Positions 11,728 through 63,965 of a stretch of DNA of 64,000 nucleotides are shown one piece after another; the stretch's first letter is position 1; every line of letters starts with the position of its first letter. The position numbers and the translations under genes were made by a program. This DNA is from Aurantiochytrium sp. KH105. Lineage: Eukaryota > Sar > Bigyra > Thraustochytrida > Thraustochytriidae. Under the pieces are notes generated by a model that was not told where the DNA came from, did no database searches, and saw only the letters and a program-made list of their open reading frames with translations. The stretch is taken from NCBI GenBank assembly GCA_003116975.1, contig BGKB01000140.1, forward strand, positions 1 through 64,000. Reading direction: 5' to 3'.

Positions 11728-14700
11728 TTACTCTGCAGCCGAGCTGGACTCCAAATTCAGCTCGTGCAGGACATGAAGCTTGGTCTCCATGTGATCCAGT
11801 CGCCGAGACACCGCGCGCATAGAACGATTGAGACCAGACGTAAGCTTCTCCAACGCCGCGCGCGTCGTATTCTCAAAAGCACCATGCGCGCCGAGCGCAA
11901 GAGCACGCCCAGAAGGGATCCAAGAAATTGCATCTCCCGATGATTTGTCGAGCTCGGCGAGGACGTAGCTCTCCAGCCCATTGCACTCAGTCTCGTCCTT
12001 GGCCTCTAGGTACAAAATGAAACCCAGATAGTCGTAAATGTTGTGCTCGTACGAAATGTGGTACATGAAGCCACCCTTGAACTCAGTGCGTAATCCCTCG
12101 CGCCCAGCGTAGCGCGCAAGATCATCTTGACGCTGACGGTACTCGAACGAGATTGCGTCAAACTCGGCGCGGCCCAAGCCACAAATAAAACACGAGTTGT
12201 TGAGCTGGGCGTGGCGATTCTGCAAGTCCTCGCGCAGGCTCGAAAATTGGTCCACGAGAACACCAAAGACAGCGTTCAAAAGAAAGATGGACACGATGAT
12301 GACAAAGCCAAGGTCGAACGCCAGGCGCTGCAATGCCTGGTCGTGGTTGGCGGGAAGATTGACCATGACCGCCGCAGGACCTTCTCCAACGCGAAGTCCA
12401 ATGTCGAGAATGAACATGAAGCACGTGAGCAGCTCCTCGCACGGATTTTCTCCAGTGACCGGGTCCGCAAAATGCTCTCGAAATGACAAAAACGCCACCA
12501 GCGAAAACCCATACAGAGTGATGGAAAGCAAAATAAAAGTCATGGCGAGACTGCGAAATGGAACACGCACGGCCTGCACCACATTCTGGAGCGTCTCGTT
12601 GCTCAAGACGATGTCAAACATCGGCACCATGAGGTAGACCGCATCCGCGCCAAGTCCAAGACCCCACCAACAGGCCACCAATGATACCATCTGAAAGAGC
12701 GATCTCGATGTTGTGAGCACATCAAAGAGGCAGCAGTACCATTTTGCAAACGATGCAGAGAAGCCAAGTGCTCCTCCAGATCGGCGCACCGCGCGCGCAA
12801 AGAGCGTGCCTTGCGCAAGCACCCAAAATTGAGCACACACCAGGAAGCGGGGGTTCACAAGGACACCCCAACCAAAGCGAATTGCAAGCAAAACACTCGC
12901 CACAGAGCACCCGACCCCGAGAGACCACGCCATGCGCACCTCGCGACTGTTATAAGGCTGCGCAAGCGCGGAGGATACGAGCACATCGTCGCCCTGCCCA
13001 CCTGCGCTGCCAGAAGAAAGATGCCCTGATGCAAGCCCCGAAGCCTTGGGCAGCGACCGCAGCCGCGCACGAGCAAGACGAAGTTTGCGTTCCAGCTTCT
13101 TAAGACGAATCGGAATCTGTGTCAGCAAATCCAGTCCCCGCAGCAAAAGTAAATGCGCCATCTGTATCACTGTCAGCAACTGGATCATGCGTAACGCAAG
13201 CGCGGGCCCAGGCCCCCCTGCGAGCGAGTCCCACAATGAAGGTAAAATTGTCGTGACCACATTCGGCGCTACGCATAGTTCTTCGCTGTCGCCGGCTTCA
13301 GGAGACACGGAAAAACTAAAGAGGAGCAGAAAATTGGACCATACTGAGAGCGCAAAGGCGATCGCGCGAATCTTGTCGAGATCCATCAAAAGCTTTTGAA
13401 TGGGCAACGCTTCGGAGAGCTGCTGGACCTGAGAGACCTCGTCCAAGAGAGAATTGGCGTTATCGAGGAACTCGCGCAAGCGCAAGTCTGGGTCTTCAAC
13501 ATTGATGTCCTGCATCAGGCTCACACGCGCAGAGTGAGACAGGAAACTGAGTGCTTTAGGTTTGGGGTAGAAGCACCGATGTACAGAGCCCTGAAAGAGG
13601 ACTTCGACACTCCGAATTGCTTCCATAAAGAACGCGATGGCTTTTTCCTCATCCGCCTTGATCATATCCATGAGGTGAAGTCCCCTGGCACGGCGCGCGT
13701 CCGAAAGTGTGACCATGATATTCAAAGCGTCGGTGGCAGCCTCAAAAAGATGCAGCATGGAATCTTCCGAGCGCCCTCGCGACGTACAGAACTCGATGGC
13801 GCGATGAATCTCCACGAGACGAGCACGCACAAGTGAGAGCTCGATCTCGCGCAAAAGTGATTCCTCCACCCTGGTATCCTGACGGCCCTCGAGCATTGCG
13901 CAGAGCGTGCGCATTGCTTTTGCCTTAAGCTCTAGAATTAGAAATGCATCGCGCTCGTCGTCTTCGGTAATCTTGTCCAGGTCAGCCTCGTGCAGAAAGG
14001 TATCACTGAGAGTAAAGTTGGTCAGAAGTACCTTTTTCACGGTCTCCAACACGCGATTGATCGGGTTGGACAAGAGGTCCTGGTTTGCCTGGCACGGCCC
14101 TTGCATGGACTCGATAAGGAAGTCAAAGATCTTGGTCAGCTGTTGCACGGTGCCTTCCCGACTGTACGCAAGAACTTCCTCGCTCTTGGTAAGCAGACAT
14201 GCGTGTTCGACACCGAGCAGCAATACGTTTGTACTGGTACGATATACAGCTGCTTCCCCTTGCTCGCGCAAAAGATTTTGCATGTCGAGAAAATGACCTT
14301 CCATGCACAGCTGCAAGAAGCGTACCACCTTGACAATGTCTTGGGCAGCCTCGCGTTGCTCGATCTCGGCCTGAGTGCGCTTGCGTCTCAGATGGTGTCG
14401 CGACCGAGGCGCCTGCAGCTCGAAAAGTGAAGCAACATCTCTAGCGTGTACGACATTGCCGCCTTCCTCCTCGTCACTTGATGACGAGGAGCTCGAGGCA
14501 CCATCGTCAACGTCAGGGTTCCCGTCCTTGTTCTGGCCCTTGGCCGTTGTCTGGGTCTCGCCTTGCTTCACGCTCCCGGCCTTTGCATGCTGCGTGGAAT
14601 GCATTGAACCGTTGCAAATACGGCCTCCTCTGCTAGAATTGTCCTCGCTGTCTTCCAGCTCGTCGAGGTCGCTGTCAGTTCCACCAAGACGGGCGCCACC

Positions 14701-17700
14701 ATCATCGTCATCGTCATCATCATCGTCGTCTTCGTCATCATCGATGGACGAAGAGGTGGTAGAGCTTGCTTTGGATGAAGACGTCCCAAAAGAGGTCGCC
14801 CCGATCGAGTCGGCGACGATGGAGGAGTTTCCAGACAAGACGGAGGCTGTATCGCCATCATCGCGCACAAGAAGCGCTTCTTCCTGAAGCTTGCGCTTCT
14901 TGTCAAGTTTGATCTCGGAGCGCGCCGCCTCACCAATCCTCGCAAAGACCGCCGCGAGACGCGCAAAGAACCGCTCCCCGCGTGGCGACATGAGGAGACC
15001 AAAGAGACGCTCCTGAACCTGGCGATTTCCGCCCTCGAGGAGGGCGATGAGACTCAAAATCGCTTTTCGAGCCAAGGCAGGCGACGTTTCAATGCAAAGA
15101 ACCTGAAAAGACATGTCCACAGCGCCCATGTCGGTGAGTCGAGACTGCGCATTCCGCTGAAGTTCCTCTTTGGACGCATCCTTGGCACGCCACGCCACAT
15201 CAAGATCCCCAATGTATGCAAGTGTAAACTGCACAATGGTGAGCACCTGCTGCGCGGTCTGGTCTGACCTACGTGCGAGGGGCTCGGTAACGTCGTTGTG
15301 TCTAATGTTGTGCTCGCGGCAGGATGCGCGCACAAAACCCATGAGCGAACGGAGAAAAAGAGAGAGCGTTGCCATGTCTCCGCAGGCGTCGTAGATTGAC
15401 TGAATCATGGAGCGCTGCTCATCCTGAATGAGTTGCTGGATGTGCGAGCTTGACTGCAAGAAGCGAAGAAAGACGTGCCAATTGTCGTGCGTGGGCCGTC
15501 CTCGTTTCCGCTCTTGCGACCGGAAGAGACGCCGTTCAATGCGCTCCATCTTGCGACGTTCGCGATCAAGCTGCCGCCGCTCCTTGTTGGCCTTGGCGGA
15601 GAGTCGGCGTTCCTCCTCCGTTTTTCGTGCGCGGCGATGAGCCGATATGGACTTGAGCAAACCACTTTTGGCTCGCCGAGAGAGGTGTTGCTCACCGGGC
15701 GTCTCCGCGAATTCCGTGAGCTCTTGCACAACCGTGAGGAGCGGAGCGCGAACCGCAAGGATGGCAGACGGCGCCGTTTGAAACTCAAAGGCGGCATGGA
15801 AGAAGGAGCGCAGCATGTACATGAAGCCATGAAAGACAAGACCACGGTAGTTGCTCAAGGTGTCTGCAACGACATCGCCACCGCGGCAACGCTCCAAAAA
15901 GCTTCCTAGTTCTGTGAGGATGATTTGCAAAAGATCCACGATGCGAGGCACCTGCTGCATGGTTCCAGCGTCCGCGAGACCTGTGTCGAGAAAGGCATCG
16001 GAGAGGGCGCGCAAAAGAACGCAGCGGAAGTGATTGTTCATGGATGGTCTCGCGCCCGAGTGCGTCGCAAGGTCGAGCAAGAGGTCAAGAGGCAAAAGTG
16101 CCTGGACCTTGGCTTCGCAGTAAGGGTTGTGGCCACGTGTGACAGCTGAAAAAAACTCGCCGAGCAAGATGCTCGCAGTGTCACTTGACTCGACCGTGAG
16201 GTCCCGAACCATGTTCTCTAGTCGGGCCTCTGCGCCCGGATCCGATAGGATAGCGTGCATTAGAGCATCCTGATTGCGGCGAATTCCAACTCCGTTCACG
16301 GACGATAGCTGCACGAATAGAGTCAACACATCTTCCGTGAGCTTGGAATGGTCCACGAGAATATTGATGATGCGAGGCGGGAAGTCGGCGCATATTTTCC
16401 GGTTCCCTCGGACAACAGCCGAAAGGCAAGCAATGGCTGGGCTGAGATTGTCTTCGAGTAGATTTTGCACGAGATCGATGTGATCGAAGACGAAACGCTG
16501 ATTGTCGATGCTGTCCTCCACAAAGACCTCAAAGAAGCGAAGGGCGAGACGCTGAATGTCGCGAAGCCACGAGGAGCGGTCGGCATCAAGAGAAAGGGCA
16601 TGCAGCACGACATCCGCCACATCGAGCGACTCGAGAATGCTGCGATGGGGCCCGCACGCTCGCGTAAGGAAACCTAGATTGCTTTTCACGCGCTTTATGA
16701 CAACCCAACCCACGTCAGAAAAAGCATTGTTTACACCCCAAATCATGTACGATTGCAGATCGTTCAAGAGCACCAAGGATCGCGTCTTGATCGAGTTGTA
16801 AAGCCGTGCCCCTGCAGAGGCACTCACAATGAGCGTCTTTTGCAATCCGTCCATGAGACGCGAACCAGGGCTGTGCTCAATGACCAATAGATCGAGAGCG
16901 CGCTCGAAAAGTTGCACAGAGGGGTCAACCTGCTGACCACAGCGAATGACCATATCTACAAGTAATTCGTCCACGGTCGCGCCAATGTCCGAAGGCGTGA
17001 ACTGCTTTTGAAGGTCGTAGAGGTTCCACTTGCTCTCCTTTGGGGCGCCAGCACGCGCGAAGCCTCCCTCGACTTGCGTCACAAGCTCACACATGCGCGT
17101 ATCCTGCGCTGCGCCCTCGAAGGCGTCAAGCACGAGCGAGATGGAGTGATCAGTCTCGAAACGAGATGCCGTGATGAGCAGCTCGCAAATTCGCTGCCGC
17201 AGTACCATCTCTTGGCGTCGCAGAGAATCGTTTGATACGAAACGCAAAAGACGCACCGCGGCGCGGCAGAGATCAATGATTTGTTCCGGGCATGAGCTGT
17301 ACCCCATCAGTATTAGCGTTTGGCCGAGAGAGATCATGCTTCCTGCAAATGATGCCTGGCCGTCGTCTCCTGCAATGGACATTTCGTTCTGCTTCGACGT
17401 CAAGTCACGATTTTCCGTGCGCTTCCGGCCTTCAGTACCTATACCTTGGTTTGATCTGTTCCTCGAGTCGGCTGTGGTCTGACCTTCGTGGCGCTGCTTG
17501 CTGTTGCGGCCGTAAGCGTCCTTTTGGTCGGAGTTTGGGGCGTGGGCCCCACCCAACTGGAGCAGCGGCGACCCCGGCTCCTGATTGGCGTACAGAGAGC
17601 TCCCCGCGTCATTGTCCATGGCATATGAGGTGGAAGTCTCCTTGTCAGCAGCAGCTTTCGAGGCCTTTTCTTTGACCAAAGAAGCGTATCGGGTGAGGGA

Positions 17701-20700
17701 ACGGAGAACGAATTCGCGCGGAAATAAGAACTTGTCTGCACCCGAAATGAGGAAAAAGGGCACAGTTTTGCCCGAGAGCACGTTGGTGAAGGAAGAAGAA
17801 GCCGTGTCTGCCTCGGTATCAGCAAATTTACCATCACAGAGCTTTGCCTGGTCAGGGGACGGAGAGCACGTTTTAGTGTCAAGAGCAGCATGGCTAGCAC
17901 TGCTTCGAAAAAGGTTGAGGCACTGGGGCATTTGGCGATATCGCCCGTAGGCGCCCCCCGGCGGAGCATTGACGCGAAAGTAAATTTTGCGCGGCAGATC
18001 ACGAACCACGTGTGGATAGCGGTCAAGATAGAGAGCCTGAAGAAGCTCGCAAAAGGCAGCTCGGAGCGAGGGAGCAAGCCGCACGTTGCTCGCACCAACG
18101 ACGAGCAATTCGTAGGTATAAATTTCCTCGAGTATCTGTATGCAATTGTAAGACCGCCCCTCGACAAGCTTGGTCATCAGCACGAGCTGGCCATGGAGGT
18201 ATGAGCACAGCTGACGAGCGCGCTCGTCTTGGAGGGCCTGGAGATCTTCAAGGCTTACCCAGGTCTTATGAGACTGAGTGACTGCTGCAGACACGCCGAG
18301 ATCTTGTGCGGAGTCTGCAAGAAGAGCCGAGTCCCAGGAAATCAGGATTTTGCCCCGCCGAAGTTGCGGTTTTCCCCCGTCCGGAGAAGCCTCGAGAAGC
18401 GTGTCACCGCCCAGCACACGATCACGAAGAGCGGCAAAAGCGACTCGTTCGGGTCCATTCGAGGAAGACTGCGCATGTGCGTCTGTATGGTCTTCATCCT
18501 CCTCGAGCTGGAAAGCGACCTCGATGAGAACCTCTTCCGGGTGGTTGCGGAAGATCTCGAGAACAATGAGTTCTTGATTGGAGACGATGCACTTTGTCGT
18601 TCCCTGGGCAAGATCCTTGCAGGTACAGAGGGAAGAAAGGAGGTCCACATAACGCTTTCGGGGTCCGTGTTTGCGGATCAAGCCGACGAGAAAAGTAATT
18701 TGGGGCCCTTTGAACTTTGTGTCGAGGAGGGTCTCATTGTTGTTTACGAGTTTGCGGAGCAATGTGACGGCGCCGACGCCACAAGAAAGTTGGCGCGCCA
18801 GCGACATAAGAACTGGCTCAAAGGTTACTTCGGCGCGCAAAGAGTATAAAAAGTCGCAAAAGGGCCGAGCAGGCCGTGGCAGCTGCGTATCGGCGAGGGA
18901 AAGCTCAAGTTCACGGCTATTCTGAAAGATGGCGGTTGCGGCGCGGAAGCAGAGACGGTGAATAAAGTATGCCCAGCGAAAAGGTGTCGAGGTGAGCTTA
19001 TCCATCCAGCCGTCTGCAAGAACGGCCTCGGGGGCGGTGCAAACGTGAAAAAGTACTTCAAAGAGACGTAAAGCAGCCAAGCGTACTTGTAGCGCAAGCT
19101 TTGAAGGCGCGAGTGGCTCCTGGAACACGCGGTTTGCGACGCTAAGCTCATAGTCGACGAGCTCAGCGCGGACTTGCTCGTCATCTGTGTCAGGCGTTTC
19201 CCCAAGAACAAATGCGAGCGCGTCAGGCTCCCCATAATTATCAACGCCGCGGCAAAAGGCGAGAAGCTCGCGGAGTACCTCGATCATTGGTGTTGTTTCT
19301 GCACGCGTGATGTACGTTTCTTTGGCGCGCGATCGTGCGAAACTTCGCATGGAAGAAGGATGTCCTCTGATCCCAAGCGAAGGCCGAGTGCTCGGTTTGC
19401 TTCGATCGAACGACGACTTTCGAGCGGGCAAGGGGTCTGCGCTGGCGTGGACCATGCGTTCTCGTAATAGCGAGACGTAGCTCATGGACACCCGAGTCCA
19501 GGACTTGATGGTTTCCACGGCACGGACCGTACTTAGAGGGACAGGGATACCGACAATGGCATCCTGGTCGTGACGCAAAATGGAGAGGCTGACGGAGCCA
19601 TCGGGCGGGGCATGGAGAAAAAATCGTCGCGCGGAGGAGCCGTCGCCAAAGAGGACTGGCGTCGGTGGCTCGAAAGACAGAAAGCAGGTCATGCCGTCAA
19701 AGCGAATTGCGGCTTGCGAGCGGTCGTTTGATCGTCCGGCATCGTGGCTATCCGAGTCAGAATCGGAGTCGAGGTCGAGTACGTCCGCGTCCACTCCAGC
19801 GCGCGCTTTGCTAAGCGCCGGGGCGAACGAAAAGGTCGACAACATTCCTCGAAACGAGGAGGTGAGCTCGAGATCGAGAGTGCCATATTCCTCAAGCCGA
19901 TCAGCATCGAGGGTGTGGGGCTTGACAGATAGGTATCTGCCGGTGGCGAGATGGCGGAGGGCCACGCGCGAGTTCCAAGGGACGGCCCCAATGTGCTGGG
20001 AAGACAATGCAGCCTTGGCAGCGATTGCTGCCGAGGTCTGGCCCGAGCGCTCTGATGCTTCGCCCGTAGAACCTTGTCCGATGGATGTTGAGCTCCCATT
20101 GAAGGAGTAGTTTCTCATGGTACTCAGTATGCTGGAACGGCGGCTTGGGGCTCGAGATGAGGCTACTGCTGCTGCAGGGCTAGAGCTTGAGGCTTGCTGC
20201 CACTCGAGGACACTCGAAGCGTGTTCGACAATCCAGATACTCTGATCGGGTTTGACTGGGGTGTCTCTCTCTGCCGAGTACCACATTGCGTTACGTGCCG
20301 CAAAGTCGTACGGAGCGCCAAGCAAGGCCTCGACTTCCGGATGGAAAAGATAGATTGCCTGACAGTCGTAGACGTACGAGGCTCTTTCTGGGTTGTAGCC
20401 TCGTGCAGCGAGGTAAAATCGCCAGCTTGCATTCTGGGAGCTCAGATGAACCTCACGCAATGCGCGCAGCTCGGATAGGCCGACGCAGTCGATGTTTTGC
20501 AAAGGCCTCGGCACAGTCTCTTGGGTACTGTTGAGGTAGTAGTCTGGAAATTTTACAGAGCGCAAGAAAATCTGGTCACCCGCATAAACTCTCGCGCCCT
20601 CTGCCCGAACCTTGAAGCGAGGCAGAATCTGGAACCAAGAGAATTCAGAGCCCTGGTCCTGGAGGTCAACCATGAGGCAGTCTTTGCGGATCCTGGCGAC

Positions 20701-21696
20701 CTTTTTGGGTGACATGCTCATGAACTTTCCACTTTTCACATGTTGCAGCTGTATAGTCTGACCGTAACGCACGAATCGTCGCCGCGCACCTGATTTTCCG
20801 GCTTCTGTGTCGCCTTTGTTTTTCGCTCTCCGACCTCTTGCTTTGCGCGTTCTCGGTTCGGCGTCAGGGGCGTCGTCGACATTGACGTAACGCTGAAGAA
20901 GGGATTTATTTTCTGTTGCTACTTTGTCTGAACGCGCGCGCAAATAGGCTTGCTGGGCCTCCGAATAGGAGCTCCGTTTGCCGAGATTGCGGAGACTCCG
21001 CTGCATTTCGTACTGAAGCTGCGGGCAAATGCGAAACTGGATATTCATTCGATTTGGCGTGAGTCGCTCGCCAATATCGGCTGCAGCGCTAGCTTCAAAC
21101 TCGTCTCGTCCCTCGTCGATATCGGCTGCAGGCGTTGTATCGGCGTCGATGGCGCCTGAATAGTCGTTGCTCTCGGCTGAGTCGAGAGAAGAAGATAAAG
21201 GGGTTGATACATCTCTTGTGCTTGAGGCGGCTCCTCCAAGATCATCGGGCTCGGAGGGTTCTGAGGACGTTGCCGCGGTCAACAGCTCGTCGTCCGGGTG
21301 CAAGAGGCCGACGAGAGAATGGTACATGCCTTCACCAATGACGAGGCCGCCATCTGCCCCATTTGCGTCGACAGATCCTATGGAGATAATGTCCCCGAAC
21401 ATGAGCTCATGCGCAGTGGATATTGCTGCCGGTGAAGCAGCCTCGCCAATTCGTCGCGCACTGGACTGAGCGCTCGAACCTTTGAGAAATTTGGACGCCG
21501 CGGTGAGAACGGGCGTCACCGACTTCATGCTCCGGAGGCTTCGCGATGAGTTGGCGGTCGGAAGAGGCGGCTTTTTCTCTCGTTCGTTCGCCGAGTCTCC
21601 TTGTTTGCTACTTGGCTTTGGACCTTGTTGCTGGCTGCTCGGCTCGCTTCTGGGCTTCTCATCGGAAGACTGTTTGCGTAGAGGTGGCATGGGCAT
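11728..21696 (-). CDS. ITPR: IP3 receptor / ryanodine receptor family Ca2+ release channel
   Basis: Intracellular calcium-release channel, 3322 residues in one exon from ATG 21696; longer than animal IP3 receptors and shorter than ryanodine receptors. Approximate order: disordered N-terminus (1-300); Ins145_P3_rec/MIR-type beta-trefoil region (about 303-430); RIH repeat around 980-1100 (KFKGPQITFLVGLIRKHG); RIH-associated domain near 2070-2200 (QQLIQDEQRSMIQSIYDACG); an acidic Asp run near 2320-2335; multiple membrane helices; the last helix (VSIFLLNAVFGVLVDQF); and the C-terminal linker zinc site CFIC (3169-3172) with HISYEH (3213-3218), which matches the animal IP3R linker. The selectivity-filter region reads LRVGEGPAA (G3104-P3107) instead of the GGGVGD or GGIGD of animal channels. 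Ligand, IP3 or other, cannot be assigned from the sequence. Confidence 0.92.
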   Translation of the reverse strand: MPMPPLRKQSSDEKPRSEPSSQQQGPKPSSKQGDSANEREKKPPLPTANSSRSLRSMKSVTPVLTAASKFLKGSSAQSSARRIGEAASPAAISTAHELMFGDIISIGSVDANGADGGLVIGEGMYHSLVGLLHPDDELLTAATSSEPSEPDDLGGAASSTRDVSTPLSSSLDSAESNDYSGAIDADTTPAADIDEGRDEFEASAAADIGERLTPNRMNIQFRICPQLQYEMQRSLRNLGKRSSYSEAQQAYLRARSDKVATENKSLLQRYVNVDDAPDAEPRTRKARGRRAKNKGDTEAGKSGARRRFVRYGQTIQLQHVKSGKFMSMSPKKVARIRKDCLMVDLQDQGSEFSWFQILPRFKVRAEGARVYAGDQIFLRSVKFPDYYLNSTQETVPRPLQNIDCVGLSELRALREVHLSSQNASWRFYLAARGYNPERASYVYDCQAIYLFHPEVEALLGAPYDFAARNAMWYSAERDTPVKPDQSIWIVEHASSVLEWQQASSSSPAAAVASSRAPSRRSSILSTMRNYSFNGSSTSIGQGSTGEASERSGQTSAAIAAKAALSSQHIGAVPWNSRVALRHLATGRYLSVKPHTLDADRLEEYGTLDLELTSSFRGMLSTFSFAPALSKARAGVDADVLDLDSDSDSDSHDAGRSNDRSQAAIRFDGMTCFLSFEPPTPVLFGDGSSARRFFLHAPPDGSVSLSILRHDQDAIVGIPVPLSTVRAVETIKSWTRVSMSYVSLLRERMVHASADPLPARKSSFDRSKPSTRPSLGIRGHPSSMRSFARSRAKETYITRAETTPMIEVLRELLAFCRGVDNYGEPDALAFVLGETPDTDDEQVRAELVDYELSVANRVFQEPLAPSKLALQVRLAALRLFEVLFHVCTAPEAVLADGWMDKLTSTPFRWAYFIHRLCFRAATAIFQNSRELELSLADTQLPRPARPFCDFLYSLRAEVTFEPVLMSLARQLSCGVGAVTLLRKLVNNNETLLDTKFKGPQITFLVGLIRKHGPRKRYVDLLSSLCTCKDLAQGTTKCIVSNQELIVLEIFRNHPEEVLIEVAFQLEEDEDHTDAHAQSSSNGPERVAFAALRDRVLGGDTLLEASPDGGKPQLRRGKILISWDSALLADSAQDLGVSAAVTQSHKTWVSLEDLQALQDERARQLCSYLHGQLVLMTKLVEGRSYNCIQILEEIYTYELLVVGASNVRLAPSLRAAFCELLQALYLDRYPHVVRDLPRKIYFRVNAPPGGAYGRYRQMPQCLNLFRSSASHAALDTKTCSPSPDQAKLCDGKFADTEADTASSSFTNVLSGKTVPFFLISGADKFLFPREFVLRSLTRYASLVKEKASKAAADKETSTSYAMDNDAGSSLYANQEPGSPLLQLGGAHAPNSDQKDAYGRNSKQRHEGQTTADSRNRSNQGIGTEGRKRTENRDLTSKQNEMSIAGDDGQASFAGSMISLGQTLILMGYSSCPEQIIDLCRAAVRLLRFVSNDSLRRQEMVLRQRICELLITASRFETDHSISLVLDAFEGAAQDTRMCELVTQVEGGFARAGAPKESKWNLYDLQKQFTPSDIGATVDELLVDMVIRCGQQVDPSVQLFERALDLLVIEHSPGSRLMDGLQKTLIVSASAGARLYNSIKTRSLVLLNDLQSYMIWGVNNAFSDVGWVVIKRVKSNLGFLTRACGPHRSILESLDVADVVLHALSLDADRSSWLRDIQRLALRFFEVFVEDSIDNQRFVFDHIDLVQNLLEDNLSPAIACLSAVVRGNRKICADFPPRIINILVDHSKLTEDVLTLFVQLSSVNGVGIRRNQDALMHAILSDPGAEARLENMVRDLTVESSDTASILLGEFFSAVTRGHNPYCEAKVQALLPLDLLLDLATHSGARPSMNNHFRCVLLRALSDAFLDTGLADAGTMQQVPRIVDLLQIILTELGSFLERCRGGDVVADTLSNYRGLVFHGFMYMLRSFFHAAFEFQTAPSAILAVRAPLLTVVQELTEFAETPGEQHLSRRAKSGLLKSISAHRRARKTEEERRLSAKANKERRQLDRERRKMERIERRLFRSQERKRGRPTHDNWHVFLRFLQSSSHIQQLIQDEQRSMIQSIYDACGDMATLSLFLRSLMGFVRASCREHNIRHNDVTEPLARRSDQTAQQVLTIVQFTLAYIGDLDVAWRAKDASKEELQRNAQSRLTDMGAVDMSFQVLCIETSPALARKAILSLIALLEGGNRQVQERLFGLLMSPRGERFFARLAAVFARIGEAARSEIKLDKKRKLQEEALLVRDDGDTASVLSGNSSIVADSIGATSFGTSSSKASSTTSSSIDDDEDDDDDDDDDDGGARLGGTDSDLDELEDSEDNSSRGGRICNGSMHSTQHAKAGSVKQGETQTTAKGQNKDGNPDVDDGASSSSSSSDEEEGGNVVHARDVASLFELQAPRSRHHLRRKRTQAEIEQREAAQDIVKVVRFLQLCMEGHFLDMQNLLREQGEAAVYRTSTNVLLLGVEHACLLTKSEEVLAYSREGTVQQLTKIFDFLIESMQGPCQANQDLLSNPINRVLETVKKVLLTNFTLSDTFLHEADLDKITEDDERDAFLILELKAKAMRTLCAMLEGRQDTRVEESLLREIELSLVRARLVEIHRAIEFCTSRGRSEDSMLHLFEAATDALNIMVTLSDARRARGLHLMDMIKADEEKAIAFFMEAIRSVEVLFQGSVHRCFYPKPKALSFLSHSARVSLMQDINVEDPDLRLREFLDNANSLLDEVSQVQQLSEALPIQKLLMDLDKIRAIAFALSVWSNFLLLFSFSVSPEAGDSEELCVAPNVVTTILPSLWDSLAGGPGPALALRMIQLLTVIQMAHLLLLRGLDLLTQIPIRLKKLERKLRLARARLRSLPKASGLASGHLSSGSAGGQGDDVLVSSALAQPYNSREVRMAWSLGVGCSVASVLLAIRFGWGVLVNPRFLVCAQFWVLAQGTLFARAVRRSGGALGFSASFAKWYCCLFDVLTTSRSLFQMVSLVACWWGLGLGADAVYLMVPMFDIVLSNETLQNVVQAVRVPFRSLAMTFILLSITLYGFSLVAFLSFREHFADPVTGENPCEELLTCFMFILDIGLRVGEGPAAVMVNLPANHDQALQRLAFDLGFVIIVSIFLLNAVFGVLVDQFSSLREDLQNRHAQLNNSCFICGLGRAEFDAISFEYRQRQDDLARYAGREGLRTEFKGGFMYHISYEHNIYDYLGFILYLEAKDETECNGLESYVLAELDKSSGDAISWIPSGRALALGAHGAFENTTRAALEKLTSGLNRSMRAVSRRLDHMETKLHVLHELNLESSSAAE

Positions 21697-47276: not shown

Positions 47277-49091
47277 CTACTTGGGGCCCATGGCACCAGG
47301 CTTGAGGCCATGCCTGTAGGTGACCGCCCCAAATGCAGTGCCACACGCAAGCAAGAGCGCCGCGTTGGCCTGCATGGCCAACTCCGGGCTCGAATAGTGG
47401 GCCATGAGACCCGTACACGAGGCGCCAACAAGCAGGCCCACGTCGCCCGTGGTGCGCAAGAGTGCCAAGGCCTGCGAACGGTTTTCATTCGGAACAATGT
47501 CCGTGACATGTGCAGTGGGTGCCATGCCAAACATGGTTGCGCCGAGACTCCAAATGGCAAGAATTCCCAGTGCCGGCGGAAGTTGAGTGGCCATCGGAAA
47601 GGCAAAGATGGCGGCCGAAACGATGGAAGACGACACCACAATCGCCGGAGGTTTCCCAAATCTGTCTGCGATCGCCGCCGAAGGTGGCGTACACACGACC
47701 GAGACCGCCGAAAGCATGGCGAACACACCGCCCACTTCGGAGGGTGAAAGCCCAAGCTCCTCGCGGACAAGCATTAGTGGAAGAAGTGTCATGTATGATC
47801 CGCTGAGAGCCAACCAGTACATGAAGTTGATGCCAAGCACGGAGTTGAACTGAGCATCCGCCAACAGCGGGCGCCACTGGCGCACAGTCTCGCGCACCTC
47901 GGCTCGAAGCGTGGGAGGCTCCGCGCTCATGCCGCCCGGGGTCGTGCCGCCCGAAGTCACCGGTCCCCCTTGGCCCGGCACGTGCGTTTCGGTGAGAATC
48001 TTGTGATTGAGACCCATAATAAAGAGAAAGCTAGCGCTGACGAGCGCAAACGACGAAGAGAGGCCCACCGAATGAGCGAGGAAACCCCCGAGCGCAGGAC
48101 CGAGCGCGGCTCCTGCCGAAAAGCCAGCAGAAATGGGAGCCATGGTCTTTGTGCGCGTAAACGGGGTGCCAATATCCATTAGGTACAGCATGGACGCCGT
48201 GGTAAACCCGCTCGACCCGAGGCCAGTGACAAGGCGTGCCACCATGAGCTCCGGCAACGAAGACGCAAAGCCAACGCCCATCATGCCGAGCGCCATGAGC
48301 GCGGCACCGCCAGTCATGACGCGCTTGCGGCCATACTTGTCGCTGAGAAAAGCGCAGGGGATGTTGCCAATTAGTTTGCTCAGCCCAAAGGCGCTCACAA
48401 CGAGGCCAAAGTCCGCGGAGGAAAGGCCCATTTTCGTGACAAAGAGCGGCATGACAGGAATCACGATGCCCACGGCTACGCCCGTGAGAACCATGGAGAT
48501 TGTAATGGGCCAGACGCGGGGATCGACGGTGTTCGCCATGCCAAGAATGACCTCGTTGAATCGAGCTCGCGTGACGCCCTCGCCGCGCGAGTCGAGCTTG
48601 GTCATGAGCTGTTCTGCAAACTCTGCTATGTACTTGTCGGACATGACGCGCTCGCGGTCGTCGCGACGGCCGATTTCGCGCATGTACGCGCGAAGCTCCT
48701 CTGGCTCGACAATGCCGTTCTTGTTTTTGTCGAGCCGGTCGAAAGCGCGGCTCAGTTCTGTCTTGTCGAAGTCGATCAGTTTAAAGAGGTCAAACACTCT
48801 TGCGTTGAAGGGCGTGTCACTCCACTTGGTCTCTGGGAGGGGCACGCGTTCTCGATCGCGGTCGAGTGCGGGCGGTGATGTGTCGAGCCTGTCCATCAGA
48901 CTTGGCGCCAGCGGCGGTGTCGGCGGCGGCTCTGGCGCCGGGGCGCCTTTTTGCTGTTCCTGCTTTTCCTGCGGCAGCGAGCTCGTCACGCCCGGAGTGA
49001 CGGACTCCACCTTTGCGTGCGGCTGCGAAGAGGCCCACCTTCGCGCGCCAGCAGCGCCGCGGGGCCACGCCCCACCGGCGGCGAGGCCCAA
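47277..49091 (-). CDS. MFS transporter with N-terminal EF-hand (5' end uncertain)
   Basis: Proton-coupled or facilitated carrier of unknown substrate. The clear frame begins at 49091 with TTG (604 residues). The first ATG within it is at 48896, past a likely targeting region, so the true start is probably upstream across the N at 49122; ATG 49213 opens a basic Arg/Ala-rich stretch in another frame. Numbered from 49091: RRWASSQ near 17-23 resembles a mitochondrial presequence cleavage site; a canonical EF-hand loop at 121-132 (D121, N123, N125, I127, E129, E132); a degenerate second EF-hand near 166-177; then about 190-600 is a 12-helix MFS core with the A motif FLSDKYGRKRVM. No substrate subfamily is recognisable. 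The calcium loop suggests Ca2+ control of transport. Confidence 0.82.
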   Translation of the reverse strand: MGLAAGGAWPRGAAGARRWASSQPHAKVESVTPGVTSSLPQEKQEQQKGAPAPEPPPTPPLAPSLMDRLDTSPPALDRDRERVPLPETKWSDTPFNARVFDLFKLIDFDKTELSRAFDRLDKNKNGIVEPEELRAYMREIGRRDDRERVMSDKYIAEFAEQLMTKLDSRGEGVTRARFNEVILGMANTVDPRVWPITISMVLTGVAVGIVIPVMPLFVTKMGLSSADFGLVVSAFGLSKLIGNIPCAFLSDKYGRKRVMTGGAALMALGMMGVGFASSLPELMVARLVTGLGSSGFTTASMLYLMDIGTPFTRTKTMAPISAGFSAGAALGPALGGFLAHSVGLSSSFALVSASFLFIMGLNHKILTETHVPGQGGPVTSGGTTPGGMSAEPPTLRAEVRETVRQWRPLLADAQFNSVLGINFMYWLALSGSYMTLLPLMLVREELGLSPSEVGGVFAMLSAVSVVCTPPSAAIADRFGKPPAIVVSSSIVSAAIFAFPMATQLPPALGILAIWSLGATMFGMAPTAHVTDIVPNENRSQALALLRTTGDVGLLVGASCTGLMAHYSSPELAMQANAALLLACGTAFGAVTYRHGLKPGAMGPK

Positions 49092-53675: not shown

Positions 53676-56600
53676 ATGCGCGCCGCAAAGGCGCTGCTGG
53701 CGGCAGCGGTGGTCGCCGCCGCAGCGACACAAACAACAGGCCAGCTCTGCCCTGAGCAGGAAAATTGGCCGGACAACGCGACGCTGCAAGAACAGTGCTT
53801 CGAAGAACTTGAGGCCTGCTACGATCTCGACGAGGTCGCACCCGCGACCGAAACCTCAAATAGCGTCGAGCGCATCGTCGTTCAGGCCGCAGGCGCCACC
53901 TTCCCGCTTCGCCTGTACCAGGACGCCATCTTCGCCTACAGGTTCCAGAACCAAAGCGTGAGCGTCTCATACCTGGGCACTGGCAGCGGAAGTGGAAAAT
54001 GCCGCATCAAAGACTTTGTCCGCGAGTGCGACAATGTCTGCACTACCGCGACAGGCGAAGATGTCGATTCCCTTGGCGCCGAGTACATCGACTTTGCTGG
54101 TTCTGACTCTCTGCTCACAGAAGCAGAGTACGACGAGTACCCGGATTTGCAAATGTACCCAGCGGTGGCCGGTGCCGTTGTGCCCATTTATAATCTCGCT
54201 GGGCTTGATGATCTCGGTCACACCTTGGTTCTCAACAAAACGACTCTTGCACAGATTTTCCGCAAGTGCGATCTCGAAGCCAACTGTCCTGGAGCCATTT
54301 TCGACTGGAACGATCCTCGCATCATCGAACTCAACAAAGTAGAGGATGACGCTGCTCTTAGCGCTGAGATCGAAAACGTTCTCACGGCCGCCGGAGCGAT
54401 CGAGGTCACCGTCCGATCCGACAAATCCGGCACCAGCGAGATCTTCAAAGGAGCACTGTCGCAATTCGAGGAGGCTTTTAATACTCAGGTCGGCTCAAGT
54501 AGTGACAACAGCGACTACAATGCTGATGTGGTCAAGCATGACGGCAACGTTGGAGTTGCCGGCCACGTAGCCAACACGCCTGGCGCCATCGGGTACTCTG
54601 TGCTGGGTGAGGCCATTACCATCGGTTTGAGCTGCGCCTCACTCAAGATTTCCGAGGACTCGACTGCCGTCGAGGCCACCACGGTGTCTGTCGCGAACGC
54701 CATGGTAGAAAAGGGCCTCGACTTCGGCACTTCTGACGAGGACCAGCTCCGCCTCAATGCCGACATTTCCGATGCCACAGGCTCCCAGGCCTGGCCCATT
54801 GCCGGCTACACGTACTTTGTTGTGCGCAAAAATACAACGCGCCCCAACGGCAGCTGCGAGAACCGTCTCGCCACGCAAAACTTTATTCTCTGGTTTTACG
54901 AGAACGAGGTTCCGCAGGCCATCGCCGAGTCTCTGGGCTTTGCTCCTCTGACCGATGAGGTCCGCAAGCTCGTGGTCTCTCGCGTTCAGCAGGACATTTA
55001 CTGCGAAGGTGAGCTCGTTTACAAGGATGAAGAAGAAGAGGTCCCCACGATTTCGTACGCTGGGGCCAGCGCCTTTGAGGACATTTTCAGCCAGTATCAG
55101 CTCTCGTACGCCATCGTTGAGCCCGACACTGAATTCAACGACACCTTTGTTGAAACCGATTCCCTTGCTGCCGTCAACCGCATCAATGACGAGACCACCA
55201 CTATCGCCGTCACCTTGTCATCCAACACAGCTGCTACTGCACGCGTGGCGGAGTTGCCTGGCGTCGTGAGCGTTCCCTACGTTGGTGTGGCTCTGGGCGT
55301 GTCTGTGAACTTTTGCTCCTCGGATGCATCGGCGTCCGACACTGCCTGTGAGGCTGTCAAGGAGGTCAACATGACTGTCAGCGTGCTTGGCCGCATCCTC
55401 ATGGGCGATATCACCGCTTGGGACCACGCCGACATCCTTGCGCTCAACCCGGCCATCGATGAATCGCACCTCACGGGTCAAAGTATCACAGTATATGGCC
55501 AAGCTGACGAAGGCGATGAGCTTTACGAGCGCTTCGTTACATATGTGCGCGAAATGGGTGGCCTTACTGACTTTACTGGCGTGGTTCCCGCAGTCAGCAA
55601 GTCGAGTCTCGAAGCTGTGCGCTCTGCAGTGGCTACCAAGGCCTTTTCAATCGCGTACAACCCTGTCATTGGTGACGCCAACCAGCGCGAGGCCTTCTTT
55701 GTCAGCGTTGGCTCTGGAACAGGTTCCTTTCTGGAGCCGGTTCCGTCGGCGATTGTTGCCTGCGCAACGGATGACGCGTACGACTCAAGCTCGGGTGCGC
55801 TCGATCTTTCAGTGGGTGCCACTGCAGCCGCCAGTGGCTGTTATCCCTTGGTCGATACCATGAATCTGGTTGTACGCTCAAAGTTCACCTCGAGTGCTGG
55901 CGAGTGCAGTGGCGGCATCGGCACGGTCAACGCAGAGTACATTGGCTTTCTTCTCAACAATGTCCTGCAGGAGGGCGCAGATTCTTCCGTGGAGGAACCC
56001 CTCGTCACGCAGGGCCTCCTCCCTGTCTCGACGCTCGATGATGCACGCATCCAGAAGAACAAGGAAATCCTCACGAGCATTACATGCGATGGTCTTTCGA
56101 TTTTGAACCCAACATTGGAGAAGAATCTCATTCCCGTGCCGGTTGTCGTGCTCAGTTTCGTCTTGGTTCTCCTCTTTTTCATTTCCTTCATTGTGCTCGC
56201 CTTTTGGGTCCAAAAGCATCGCCGTCAAAAGATCATTCTCATTTCCTCGCCACCCTTTCTCCTGCAAATCCTCCTGGGCGCAACCATTTGCGTCGCGGCC
56301 ATTATCCCTCTTTCCCTCCAGGACGATGGAGTCTTTTACTCGGAGAATGCTGACGAAAATGGCAACTATCCGGGGCTCGATATCGCCTGTGCCGCTGCGC
56401 CACTTCTTTACTCGGTTGGATTTGCCGTGCTGTACTCGTCGCTTTGGCTCAAGACTTGGCGCTTGGGCCGAATCTTTGACAACCCCAAGCTCAAGCGCAT
56501 CTTCATCACCAACCGCACCATGCAGCTCTATCAGGGTCTTTTGCTCACCGTCATTCTCGTCTGCAACATTCTTTGGATGGTCATTGATCCGCTGCGCTAC

Positions 56601-57140
56601 GAGCGCGTTGTTGTCACGATGGACGACGATGGCAGTGTGCTCGAGTCGTACGGACGCTGCTACTCGGAGGATTCGCTCATTCTCATCGCGCCGCTTGCGG
56701 CGATCCTTATGCTCTCGCTGCTGTACGGCATTTACCTTCTCTACCAGTCGCGTCGCATTCCGTCAGAGTACGGTGAGGGTCGCTATATTGGCTTTTCTCT
56801 TACAATGGGCTTTGAGTCCCTTCTCCTTGGTATCCCCGTTCTGTTCCTCGCCGGCAACAATCCAACCACGTCTTTTGTCGTCAAGATGGCGATTATCATC
56901 TTTACGAGTGCAGCTGTTGTTGGCTTCCTTTTTCTGCCAAAGGTTTGGCACGTGTACTCGCGCGGTTGGTCAACTGGGCTCAATAGCAGCGACTCGGATC
57001 AGGAGTACAGTTTCACGCATTCCAAGCCACGTCTGCAGGACAATGCCATGCAGTCGACGTCGTTCATCGACAGCTTCAAGGATCACACGCGTTCTTTCAT
57101 GGAACCCTCGGCCGACGCCGACAACGAGGAGACTGTGTGA
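53676..57140 (+). CDS. PstS-domain seven-helix receptor (class C-like GPCR)
   Basis: 1154 residues from ATG 53676. Residues 1-22 are a signal peptide ending about TTGQ. Residues 65-440 are a PstS-type periplasmic phosphate-binding domain. The phosphate ligands of E. coli PstS are matched: ATFP (T75, F76), GSGSG (103-107), FAGSD (D144) and RSDKSGT (R247, D249, S251, G252, T253). Residues about 457-800 are a second, diverged copy that lacks the R-x-D-x-SGT loop. Residues 818-1092 carry seven hydrophobic helices resembling the GABA-B/class C 7TM domain (SSLWLKTWRLGRIF, NILWMVIDPL, RYIGFSLTMGFESLLLGIP). The 60-residue cytosolic tail is Ser/Asp-rich. Class C receptors use a periplasmic-binding-protein-like ligand domain, but of another family (LIVBP). 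A phosphate or anion sensor at the cell surface is the simplest reading; the ligand is inference. Confidence 0.88.
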   Translation: MRAAKALLAAAVVAAAATQTTGQLCPEQENWPDNATLQEQCFEELEACYDLDEVAPATETSNSVERIVVQAAGATFPLRLYQDAIFAYRFQNQSVSVSYLGTGSGSGKCRIKDFVRECDNVCTTATGEDVDSLGAEYIDFAGSDSLLTEAEYDEYPDLQMYPAVAGAVVPIYNLAGLDDLGHTLVLNKTTLAQIFRKCDLEANCPGAIFDWNDPRIIELNKVEDDAALSAEIENVLTAAGAIEVTVRSDKSGTSEIFKGALSQFEEAFNTQVGSSSDNSDYNADVVKHDGNVGVAGHVANTPGAIGYSVLGEAITIGLSCASLKISEDSTAVEATTVSVANAMVEKGLDFGTSDEDQLRLNADISDATGSQAWPIAGYTYFVVRKNTTRPNGSCENRLATQNFILWFYENEVPQAIAESLGFAPLTDEVRKLVVSRVQQDIYCEGELVYKDEEEEVPTISYAGASAFEDIFSQYQLSYAIVEPDTEFNDTFVETDSLAAVNRINDETTTIAVTLSSNTAATARVAELPGVVSVPYVGVALGVSVNFCSSDASASDTACEAVKEVNMTVSVLGRILMGDITAWDHADILALNPAIDESHLTGQSITVYGQADEGDELYERFVTYVREMGGLTDFTGVVPAVSKSSLEAVRSAVATKAFSIAYNPVIGDANQREAFFVSVGSGTGSFLEPVPSAIVACATDDAYDSSSGALDLSVGATAAASGCYPLVDTMNLVVRSKFTSSAGECSGGIGTVNAEYIGFLLNNVLQEGADSSVEEPLVTQGLLPVSTLDDARIQKNKEILTSITCDGLSILNPTLEKNLIPVPVVVLSFVLVLLFFISFIVLAFWVQKHRRQKIILISSPPFLLQILLGATICVAAIIPLSLQDDGVFYSENADENGNYPGLDIACAAAPLLYSVGFAVLYSSLWLKTWRLGRIFDNPKLKRIFITNRTMQLYQGLLLTVILVCNILWMVIDPLRYERVVVTMDDDGSVLESYGRCYSEDSLILIAPLAAILMLSLLYGIYLLYQSRRIPSEYGEGRYIGFSLTMGFESLLLGIPVLFLAGNNPTTSFVVKMAIIIFTSAAVVGFLFLPKVWHVYSRGWSTGLNSSDSDQEYSFTHSKPRLQDNAMQSTSFIDSFKDHTRSFMEPSADADNEETV

Positions 57141-61163: not shown

Positions 61164-63965
61164 TTACTTGATTTTGAAAGCAATCTTCCCGAGAGACTGC
61201 AGTCCGGATAATAGCACATAGACCAACCAGAGAAGGACAAGCAGAATTGAGGAGATCCACTTTGGCTTGGACGGGCCTCCGAGCTCTCCGTATCCAAGCC
61301 TTCGTCGTGCATACATGATCATGAAGAAAATCACGGCAACGACGCAGAAGACGAGAACCGAAAACGCAAGATCGCCTGCCGCAACGGGGTAGCCTAGCGT
61401 CTCGGGGCTCTTGATGCTTTTGTATATGGAACCAATGACCCAGGGCAACCCGAGCCCGAGGAAAACGTTGACAGAGTTGGACCCGGTCACGTTGCCGATT
61501 GAATTGTCGGCAGTGTCGTCGTTCTCTGCTGCCGTCTTGCTGGCAAAGGTGTCGGGCAGCGAGGTGCCGAGGGCCACAAAAGTAATGGCGGTCAGAGACG
61601 TCGGGACTCCCATGAGGCAGCCGAACATCTTGGCCACGTCGCCCACGACGGCCGTGAGAACGAGAATGAATAACAGAGACACCGAAAAGGTCAGCTTCCC
61701 GTTCCAGTACGATGTGGGCGGTACCAGCGCGAAAAGCACTTTCCATCCAAAGGAGAGCACATGCAAGACGCAGTCGGTCGATGTTGGCTCGGCGCCATCT
61801 TCGCCCTGGACAGTTAAGGCATTGATGAGCTGCTCTTTCCACGTTCCCGTCCCAACCTCAACACTCTCCAAGTGCAGACGCATGAGCGATGCGATGCGGT
61901 CGATTGTCGCCTTGTAACCTTCATCGCTCGTGATCGTCACGCTGGCGACCCGATGTTCGCCGTATTCCGCGGCGCAGTCCTCAATGTTGACAATTTCAAA
62001 TTCGACCGCGAAGGTAGCGTCCCGCTCATAGGTCTTGTTGTCCATAATGGACACCTCAATAAAGCCCTCACGAACTCCATGCTCAAAAACAAGTGTTCCA
62101 CTCGCCTCAAGATAGTCGGTTCCTGCTTTGGCAGAGGCATCCTTGGTCTTGTATTGGACCTTGACACGACCTGCGATACCTTTTTCTCTATTGACCTTGA
62201 TACGCGCCACCCCTTCGGACTCTCGCACCACGACGACTTTGTCATCAAAGGTAAATGTGCCTGGAAGGTCGTCGTCGATGATTGTGACCTCGGCCGTGGA
62301 GAACGCCGAGTGGGCCATGTCGACGTTGTGGTCCGAGCCCTTGACGCTGAGGACGACCTGAAAGGTTTCATCGGGTTCGTAGACGTTGTCGTCAATGATG
62401 TTGACGCGTACCATCTTGTTGGTCTCCCCTGGCAAAAAGACGAGCTTGCCATCCGTGTGCTCGAAATCCTCGCCGCCACGCGCCGTGCCGCTGCGCGTCT
62501 CGTAGTACACGGTTGAGGTGAGCTGGAGATCTTCTTCCGTCCCCGTGCGCACCACAGGGAGCTCGATTGCGCCCGAGTTCTCGTTGACACAAAAGGCGTA
62601 GGCCGTGAATGACACTCTGGGAAGGGTCTTTTCCGGTTCCTTTGGCGCAACATCGAGCTCTTCGTTCTCCAAGATGAATGGAGACGAGGCGTGCAGCGGC
62701 ACTTTTCCAGAGCCCAACCCGAGACGATCTAGCTCCGAAGGGGAGTTTTGCGCGAATCGCTTTGTGGTGTGACGCTTCAAAAAGTCGAGTCGCTTTTGGA
62801 TTACCGTGCGCCCGCCGACCATTTTGCGCCTTGCATCGATCCTGTACCGCATAGGCGTTGCGCGTTCCTTGAGGATGTCGCCCGCCACGGCCTTAGCCAT
62901 GTCATCATCCGACATCCCTCGCGGCATGGCCTGCAAAAGCTCGGCGATGCGGCCCTTCTCCTTGTCTTCCATGGTGATCACGCGCGAGTTCATGTCTTGC
63001 TCGGCGGAGGGCTGTGCTCCACTCGTATGGTCGATTGAGAATTTGCGCCGATCACGTAGTCCCGTATGGTTCTCGGTGTCGAGTGCAATAATGTGACCCT
63101 CCGGACGCACTTTGGCGTTGTGGCCTCTGCCCAAGAGTCCCCACCATCCTTTGCTCTCTGCGTACGAAAGCGCCACGAGCAGTGGAAAGAAAAAGAGGGT
63201 GACAAAGGCTTCCCATATCTCAACAATCTCGTCTCTGAGAACGATGAACATCCAGATATAGGCAAAGATTGAAAAAAAGCCTGTGATCATGAAAACGCCA
63301 TAGTTTTCGATCACCCGTTTCTCCCCATCAGGGAGAGCGGAAATGCAAACAGCTGTGATGCACAGCAAGTTGAACGCAGCGCTGCCAACAATGGTGGAGG
63401 GGCCAAGACTATCTTCCGCCACCTCATTGTCCAGCGTGCCGATGGTCTCAACAACGGAGAGGAGGATTTCGGGCGCAGAGCTTCCCAGTGCCATGAGCGT
63501 CAGGTTTGCGACGGTCTCATTCCACACAAGCACGCGGTGCTCCTCGGACTCTCCGCTTTCGTTTTGCACAATGACAACCTTTTCTTTGCTTGTGATCACC
63601 TCGATGGCTGCCATAAAATGATCCGAGATGATGGCCACGCCGATGAAGCACCACATGAGAAGAAGAAAGTAAAAGACGGCACGAACTGGTCTGGGCCACA
63701 TGATTTCGCTCGCTAAGAATGGAAATACGTAGTCGCCTAGGCATTCTTCCGGATCGTAATTTGGTTGGGTAGCGAGGATGATGCTTCCTTGGGGCATGTC
63801 GATCTTTGTTAGACTACAAGTCGAGTTCTTCACGAAATCGCTGCATTGCAAATCACTAAAACCCGAGCTCATCGACTCAATGTTGACGAGGGCATTGGTA
63901 CGGGATGGGGTATCTGCGAGAATGACTGCACAGAGTCCGAGCGCGAGCCAGGAAGAGGATCTCAT
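61164..63965 (-). CDS. Na+/Ca2+ exchanger with two Calx-beta domains (NCX type)
   Basis: Plasma-membrane antiporter that extrudes Ca2+ using Na+. From ATG 63965 it has 933 residues; an in-frame TTG lies three codons earlier. A signal peptide (1-24) precedes an extracellular segment with several Cys. The alpha-1 repeat is at about 154-200 (TLMALGSSAPEILLSVVE, GPSTIVGSAAFN). A large cytosolic loop contains two Calx-beta domains (about 453-545 and 572-669) with the Ca2+-site reading IIDDNVYEPDE and VTIIDDDLPG. The alpha-2 repeat is near 790-850 (ITFVALGTSLPDTFASKTAA, NVTGSNSVNVFLGLGLPW). This is the animal NCX (SLC8) layout, so Ca2+ binding to Calx-beta probably activates transport. Length and domain order match animal NCX1. 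It ends convergently with the BED-aldolase gene. Confidence 0.94.
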   Translation of the reverse strand: MRSSSWLALGLCAVILADTPSRTNALVNIESMSSGFSDLQCSDFVKNSTCSLTKIDMPQGSIILATQPNYDPEECLGDYVFPFLASEIMWPRPVRAVFYFLLLMWCFIGVAIISDHFMAAIEVITSKEKVVIVQNESGESEEHRVLVWNETVANLTLMALGSSAPEILLSVVETIGTLDNEVAEDSLGPSTIVGSAAFNLLCITAVCISALPDGEKRVIENYGVFMITGFFSIFAYIWMFIVLRDEIVEIWEAFVTLFFFPLLVALSYAESKGWWGLLGRGHNAKVRPEGHIIALDTENHTGLRDRRKFSIDHTSGAQPSAEQDMNSRVITMEDKEKGRIAELLQAMPRGMSDDDMAKAVAGDILKERATPMRYRIDARRKMVGGRTVIQKRLDFLKRHTTKRFAQNSPSELDRLGLGSGKVPLHASSPFILENEELDVAPKEPEKTLPRVSFTAYAFCVNENSGAIELPVVRTGTEEDLQLTSTVYYETRSGTARGGEDFEHTDGKLVFLPGETNKMVRVNIIDDNVYEPDETFQVVLSVKGSDHNVDMAHSAFSTAEVTIIDDDLPGTFTFDDKVVVVRESEGVARIKVNREKGIAGRVKVQYKTKDASAKAGTDYLEASGTLVFEHGVREGFIEVSIMDNKTYERDATFAVEFEIVNIEDCAAEYGEHRVASVTITSDEGYKATIDRIASLMRLHLESVEVGTGTWKEQLINALTVQGEDGAEPTSTDCVLHVLSFGWKVLFALVPPTSYWNGKLTFSVSLLFILVLTAVVGDVAKMFGCLMGVPTSLTAITFVALGTSLPDTFASKTAAENDDTADNSIGNVTGSNSVNVFLGLGLPWVIGSIYKSIKSPETLGYPVAAGDLAFSVLVFCVVAVIFFMIMYARRRLGYGELGGPSKPKWISSILLVLLWLVYVLLSGLQSLGKIAFKIK

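Follow-up and report, generated by a model that had tools for sequence, protein, structure and literature searches.

We describe a gene from Aurantiochytrium sp. KH105 that is predicted to encode a surface receptor carrying a bacterial-type phosphate-binding domain. It lies in a 64,000-nucleotide stretch of contig BGKB01000140.1 (the window), at positions 53676–57140 of the forward strand, and is one uninterrupted, intronless frame of 1154 amino acids. The frame consists of tandem PstS-like domains and a class C-type seven-transmembrane (7TM) receptor domain, as indicated by Pfam and by the recurrence of the layout in eight frames of the genome. Its parts, all on the forward strand, are as follows. 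By eye, residues 1–22 (53676–53741) are hydrophobic and signal-peptide-like; a structure model places a low-confidence helix at residues 2–18. The first flytrap, PBP1 (residues 64–451, 53865–55028), is predicted from sequence to be an intact PstS-type phosphate-binding domain. The second, PBP2 (residues 452–809, 55029–56102), is a degenerate PstS-like domain in which the phosphate residues are mostly gone. A linker of the form TC[DN]GxS...P (residues 803–812, 56082–56111) precedes the first membrane helix (TM1), with T803, C804, G806, S808 and P812 invariant in all eight copies. The class C, GABA-B-like seven-helix domain spans about residues 818–1095 (56127–56960), and its EGR motif is among the features invariant in those copies. 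The C-terminal tail (residues 1096–1154, 56961–57137) is little conserved in the paralogue alignment.

The original prediction, made from the sequence alone, had placed a PstS-type domain in residues 65–440 and a GABA-B-like seven-helix domain at 818–1092. Profile searches bear this out, and its coordinates and residues are correct. Pfam finds PBP_like_2 (PF12849) at residues 65–410 in two stretches (E 2.2e-24, 87.1 bits against a cut-off of 27) and 7tm_3 (PF00003) at residues 824–1089 (E 2.5e-34, 119.5 bits against a cut-off of 33.5). The best NCBIfam match is the PstS model TIGR00975 (E 8.8e-52, 176.1 bits). In phmmer searches of the PDB, the best-scoring match is PstS for the N-terminal part (residues 123–429, E 2.4e-16) and GABA-B2 for the C-terminal part (residues 816–1119, E 3.2e-24).

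The phosphate site of PBP1 is predicted by comparison to E. coli PstS, in which we take T10, F11, S38, D56, R135, D137, S139, G140 and T141 to be the phosphate ligand residues. A full match to these positions had been claimed, and the residue alignment agrees at nine of nine. The putative ligands are T75 and F76 (53898–53903), S104 (53985–53987), D144 (54105–54107) and, within R247-S-D249-K-S251-G252-T253 (54414–54434), the counterparts of R135, D137, S139, G140 and T141. The serine aligned with E. coli S38 is S104, inside the string GTGSGSG. All nine positions are unchanged in PBP1 of all eight receptor copies. The surroundings of the pocket vary among paralogues (GSGSG, GSGNG, GSSKG), and in the first flytrap of the second copies L006 and L008 the glycine ahead of the phosphate-site serine is altered (GTDSNKG and GTSSSKG versus GTGSSKG). 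The structure model gives PBP1 a predicted PstS fold. For a wider comparison, we took the best 80 of 556 bacterial relatives, found with search patterns that included AGATFP and AWP. D137 is kept in 78 of these 80, T141 in 79 and the remaining seven positions in every one, the conservation of T10 and F11 being partly by construction because of those patterns.

The second PstS-like copy that had been proposed is real but weak. PBP2 alone matches TIGR00975 with E 4.7e-9 in the window protein; its counterparts in three paralogues give two weak matches (6.8e-7, 1.1e-6) and, in L004, none. Aligning the four-sequence profiles of PBP1 and PBP2 with hhalign gives 95.9% and E 5.7e-9. With the caveat that the PBP2 alignment is uncertain, the window PBP2 keeps one of the nine phosphate positions (S38), L004 keeps S38 and T141, and L005 and L007 keep R135 and D137. 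By eye, no PBP2 ligand motif is common to the four paralogues. Only 28 of 389 columns of PBP2 are invariant across these four; it is the fastest-changing part, and PBP1 is the most conserved. Judged by sequence, PBP2 is a diverged PstS-like domain that has lost most of the phosphate site.

The seven-helix domain has the hallmarks of class C. C905, C995, K926–R929 and P1088–K1089 are invariant in all eight copies and the aligned GABA-B2 has the same letters; these are presumably the class C cysteine pair joining TM3 to the second extracellular loop and the KTWR and PK motifs. None of 14 prokaryote control genomes matches the 7tm_3 profile. Pfam finds no ANF_receptor or Peripla_BP match in the window protein at E 1, PBP_like_2 occupying that place, and no cysteine-rich domain ahead of TM1. 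Since the flytrap is PBP_like_2 and not of type I (LIVBP/ANF), this is not an animal-type class C receptor, and the class membership is limited to the 7TM part. GABA-B has one binding and one non-binding flytrap of type I, one on each of its two chains, whereas both flytraps of the window protein are PstS-like and lie on one chain. The two share a 7TM domain of the same kind and the lack of a cysteine-rich domain before TM1 (for GABA-B, the available part of PMC12716839).

The gene belongs to a small family. A search of its own genome (76 Mb, 367 contigs) with the receptor gave 39 matches, of which 31 are confined to the 7TM part and eight are near full length in uninterrupted frames. These eight, which include the window gene, are 100, 99, 44, 44, 37, 36, 36 and 36% identical to it and span residues 46–63 to 1095–1154. 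They make up four genes in two copies each, with 94–99% identity inside each pair, and the pair members are probably two haplotypes. The within-pair dN/dS is 0.10 to 0.25 for the whole gene and at most 0.22 for each of the three parts, so all three parts are under purifying selection.

The bacterial ancestry claimed for the PstS domain is upheld by profile matches to bacterial PstS and by its grouping in a tree of 89 rows made with IQ-TREE. There, the eight receptor domains form one clade (100/100), which groups with three Chloroflexota/Anaerolineae PstS, L057–L059 (100/100), in an order that is weak among the three (90/58). The same three are the closest matches among the best 80 of 556 relatives, at 33–36% identity. 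They and E. coli PstS share with PBP1 the fold and the nine phosphate-site residues, and a C-terminal C[EN]G motif is common to L057, L058 and three of the four paralogues. E. coli and Anaerolineae PstS differ in being free binding proteins of PstCAB importers (on gene neighbours in E. coli), whereas the PstS domain of the window protein is part of a receptor, in a genome that gave no permease match. Given the long branch leading to the receptor clade (1.32) and a set of bacteria selected by similarity, a Chloroflexota-like donor is likely from these sequences, not proven. A scan of genome contigs with the first alignment (four receptor PstS domains) found no relative, and the same alignment found no match in viral contigs. 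A second PstS alignment found 166 relatives in viral contigs, the best 80 at 25–31% identity. No 7TM match by tblastn adjoins the best 80 of 166 viral or the best 80 of 556 bacterial PstS loci; these 160 gave one chance match (E 0.72), and the control receptor loci matched in eight of eight. The viral-contig scan with the 7TM part found no match either. A viral or giant-virus source is unsupported, with no 7TM beside those viral relatives and an empty viral 7TM scan. Searches with PBP1 by tblastn also reached 53 plasmid records (25–30% among the best listed) and 64 phage records (26–29% among the matches listed), all ordinary PstS.

The rest of the genome was asked for importers, G proteins and sibling receptors. 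PBP_like_2 has 10 matches, namely the eight receptor copies and one other protein in two copies. This other protein (L009:955-3507, minus strand, and L010) has 850 amino acids, with a kelch/mutarotase-like propeller and a PstS-like domain (TIGR00975 E 2.6e-38) in which several phosphate residues differ by eye; it has an acidic stretch and one hydrophobic segment near the C-terminus, and lacks a 7TM domain. A six-frame search for BPD_transp_1, the ABC-import permease family, found no match in this genome, and all 14 control genomes match. Hence, the PstS domain has no visible importer to serve, which suggests a PstS-derived domain rather than an importer subunit. G-alpha has 46 matches, 27 of them above the cut-off; one G-alpha frame, at C314:13060-14091 and C245:49750-50781, has an in-frame TGA in both copies. 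The 7tm_3 family has 69 matches, all above the cut-off, which would make about 35 genes provided that most occur in pairs. We fetched 31 other 7tm_3 loci, one per presumed pair, and scanned 30 for ectodomains: 10 have ANF_receptor, one Peripla_BP_6 alone, four OpuAC, one Phosphonate-bd, two Cache (one below the cut-off) and one a sub-threshold EGF. The other 11 of the 30 have no recognised ectodomain, three of them matching only a disordered PT repeat. This variety suggests that the PstS receptors are one branch of a wider habit. The four class C-type receptors with OpuAC, a domain of the glycine betaine/choline type (L038:833-3340, L039:665-3136, L040:967-3483 and L041:965-4177, all minus strand), form one clade in the 7TM tree. 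The class C-type receptor at L052:585-3560 (minus strand) has a Phosphonate-bd domain (E 7e-26) and resembles part of a TtrS kinase model.

Other genes of the window, all on the minus strand, include an intronless frame of 3322 amino acids with IP3/ryanodine-receptor domains and an ion channel domain (11728–21696), an MFS transporter with an EF-hand at its N-terminus (47277–48896) and, about 4 kb downstream of the receptor gene, a Na+/Ca2+ exchanger with Calx-beta domains (61164–63965). Elsewhere, the genome has large genes resembling polyunsaturated fatty acid synthase (TIGR02813 E 1.4e-278, 930 bits, below the cut-off of 1010; 11 of 14 control prokaryotes also match below the cut-off). Single frames of 5708 and 5831 codons at C27:303609-314666 and C56:295285-306354 match the PfaA model repeatedly in its ketosynthase part.

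The architecture is known but obscure, and has been read differently before. The design had been thought undescribed, which does not hold, as fusions are already listed in Plasmodiophora brassicae (PMC4815078) and Spizellomyces (PMC3251606). By the available text of the 2016 report, P. brassicae has 7tm3 fusions with PBP_like_2 or SBP_bac_1, four of them termed 'phosphate transporters', and they are said to be unique to that species. As in the window protein, PBP_like_2 and 7tm_3 stand in one coding region, and phosphate is the predicted solute for four; the likeness rests on domain content, not on flytrap number or pocket residues, and those fusions were read as transporters (PMC4815078). The seen part of PMC3251606 (2012) lists SPPG_06488 of the chytrid Spizellomyces punctatus, a glutamate-family G-protein-coupled receptor (GPCR) with PBP_like_2, and in Allomyces OpuAC in six receptors and glutamate-family GPCRs with OpuAC or SBP_bac_1. 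These too have PBP_like_2 or another binding domain of Pfam clan CL0177 on a class C 7TM, listed there as domain architecture rather than with a ligand-site analysis (PMC3251606). The window protein is likewise such a fusion, its single coding region having both a CL0177 binding domain and 7tm_3. As far as the accessible portions go, the class C receptors of diatoms (PMC3727952) and the Grl receptors of Dictyostelium (PMC10445921) also have a bacterial-type binding domain on a class C 7TM, but PBP1/ANF or BMP domains, not PstS. We found no PstS receptor in those portions or in that of PMC12716839; PBP_like_2 is in the abbreviation list of PMC10445921. The available text of PMC11217555 names pstS as a transport gene and in no other role. 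Our literature search, with subscription papers and preprints outside its scope, found no PstS–7TM protein treated as a phosphate receptor and no live-plus-dead tandem noted. We take IPR000337, IPR002455 and IPR017978 to be family 3 GPCR domains. These and a G-protein domain are enriched in thraustochytrids, according to the part of PMC6050695 at hand, which does not cover ectodomains. New here are another genome, the pairing of a conserved pocket with a degenerate second flytrap, an origin that is probably Chloroflexota-like and the sibling class C receptors with OpuAC or phosphonate-binding domains.

We think it probable that the window protein is a receptor that detects inorganic phosphate at the cell surface. 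PBP1, derived from a bacterial PstS, would close on extracellular phosphate, and PBP2, lacking a phosphate site, would pass the movement through the short conserved Cys-containing linker to the seven-helix domain. The GABA-B2 flytrap, which binds no ligand, suggests by analogy that PBP2 might be a transmitter or a dimer partner. The GABA-B-like seven-helix domain would then activate a heterotrimeric G protein, with Ca2+ release as a possible downstream step, given the IP3/ryanodine-receptor-like frame at 11728–21696. We infer this whole sequence of events, including phosphate binding, membrane topology, G-protein coupling and the role of PBP2, from the anatomy of the protein. Several points weigh against it. 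The reading draws on sequence rather than on binding, expression or signalling data, and the pocket is predicted from residue alignment and fold match rather than from measured distances. TIGR00975 has an equivalog cut-off of 205 bits, above the 176.1 bits obtained here and the 160.5–171.1 of three paralogues. The full-length structure model is of low confidence outside PBP1 (mean pLDDT 56.8, pTM 0.43) and does not reliably give the PBP2 fold or the domain arrangement, so the PBP2 fold is taken from sequence. The six-frame search could miss an intron-split permease, the G-alpha genes may serve other class C receptors, and one genome of this kind was searched.

Of the alternatives, the most serious, though unlikely, is that the protein is such a receptor but its PstS domain has shifted in specificity, to arsenate, phosphite, polyphosphate, a phosphorylated metabolite or a protein partner. 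The paralogues do differ near the pocket, and the Dictyostelium family 3 GPCR GrlD is named a putative polyphosphate receptor in the available part of PMC10445921. Against such a shift, the nine phosphate positions are unchanged in every copy and nearly so in the bacterial set. The main published rival is uptake, with the PstS domain gathering phosphate and the seven-helix part importing it; PMC4815078, in the text seen, calls the P. brassicae fusions a new transporter class from homology and expression. We regard this as quite improbable here, since the membrane part is 7tm_3 with GABA-B-like residues, and perhaps a GABA-B-like fold, and the genome has no ABC-import permease match. That finding, together with the many G-alpha genes, is why we favour a receptor, and its function as one appears likely from sequence features. 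Nor do we know of any transport activity in the 7tm_3 family. About equally improbable is phosphate as a structural cofactor, holding PBP1 permanently closed, in which case the domain would serve in adhesion or in assembling dimers and the signal would come in at another place. PBP2, faster diverging and with its phosphate site mostly lost, could hold another ligand site, but we see no motif for one common to the four paralogues, and PBP1 is the most conserved part. That two neighbouring genes or an assembly join were taken as one is hardly credible: the transcript spanning the receptor gene is predicted from the frame alone, but the layout recurs at four loci with conserved linkers and selection across all three parts. 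Recurrence in eight open frames excludes a chance junction, and we reject a gene-model artefact on the same ground.

If the protein is a phosphate receptor, it would be a eukaryotic surface nutrient sensor built on a bacterial-type phosphate-binding protein, similar fusions being listed in protists and fungi, and proteins once filed as transporters would become receptors. More tentatively, and with somewhat more doubt than confidence, we propose a family of phosphate-sensing GPCRs within a modular system that places phosphate, glycine betaine/choline-type and phosphonate-type importer proteins on class C 7TM domains, and in which a live and a dead flytrap on one chain act like the two GABA-B subunits. 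Class C receptors would then have taken up more than one kind of importer protein. The genes are concrete candidates for the phosphate receptor type in stramenopile phosphate sensing, with a defined predicted pocket to mutate.
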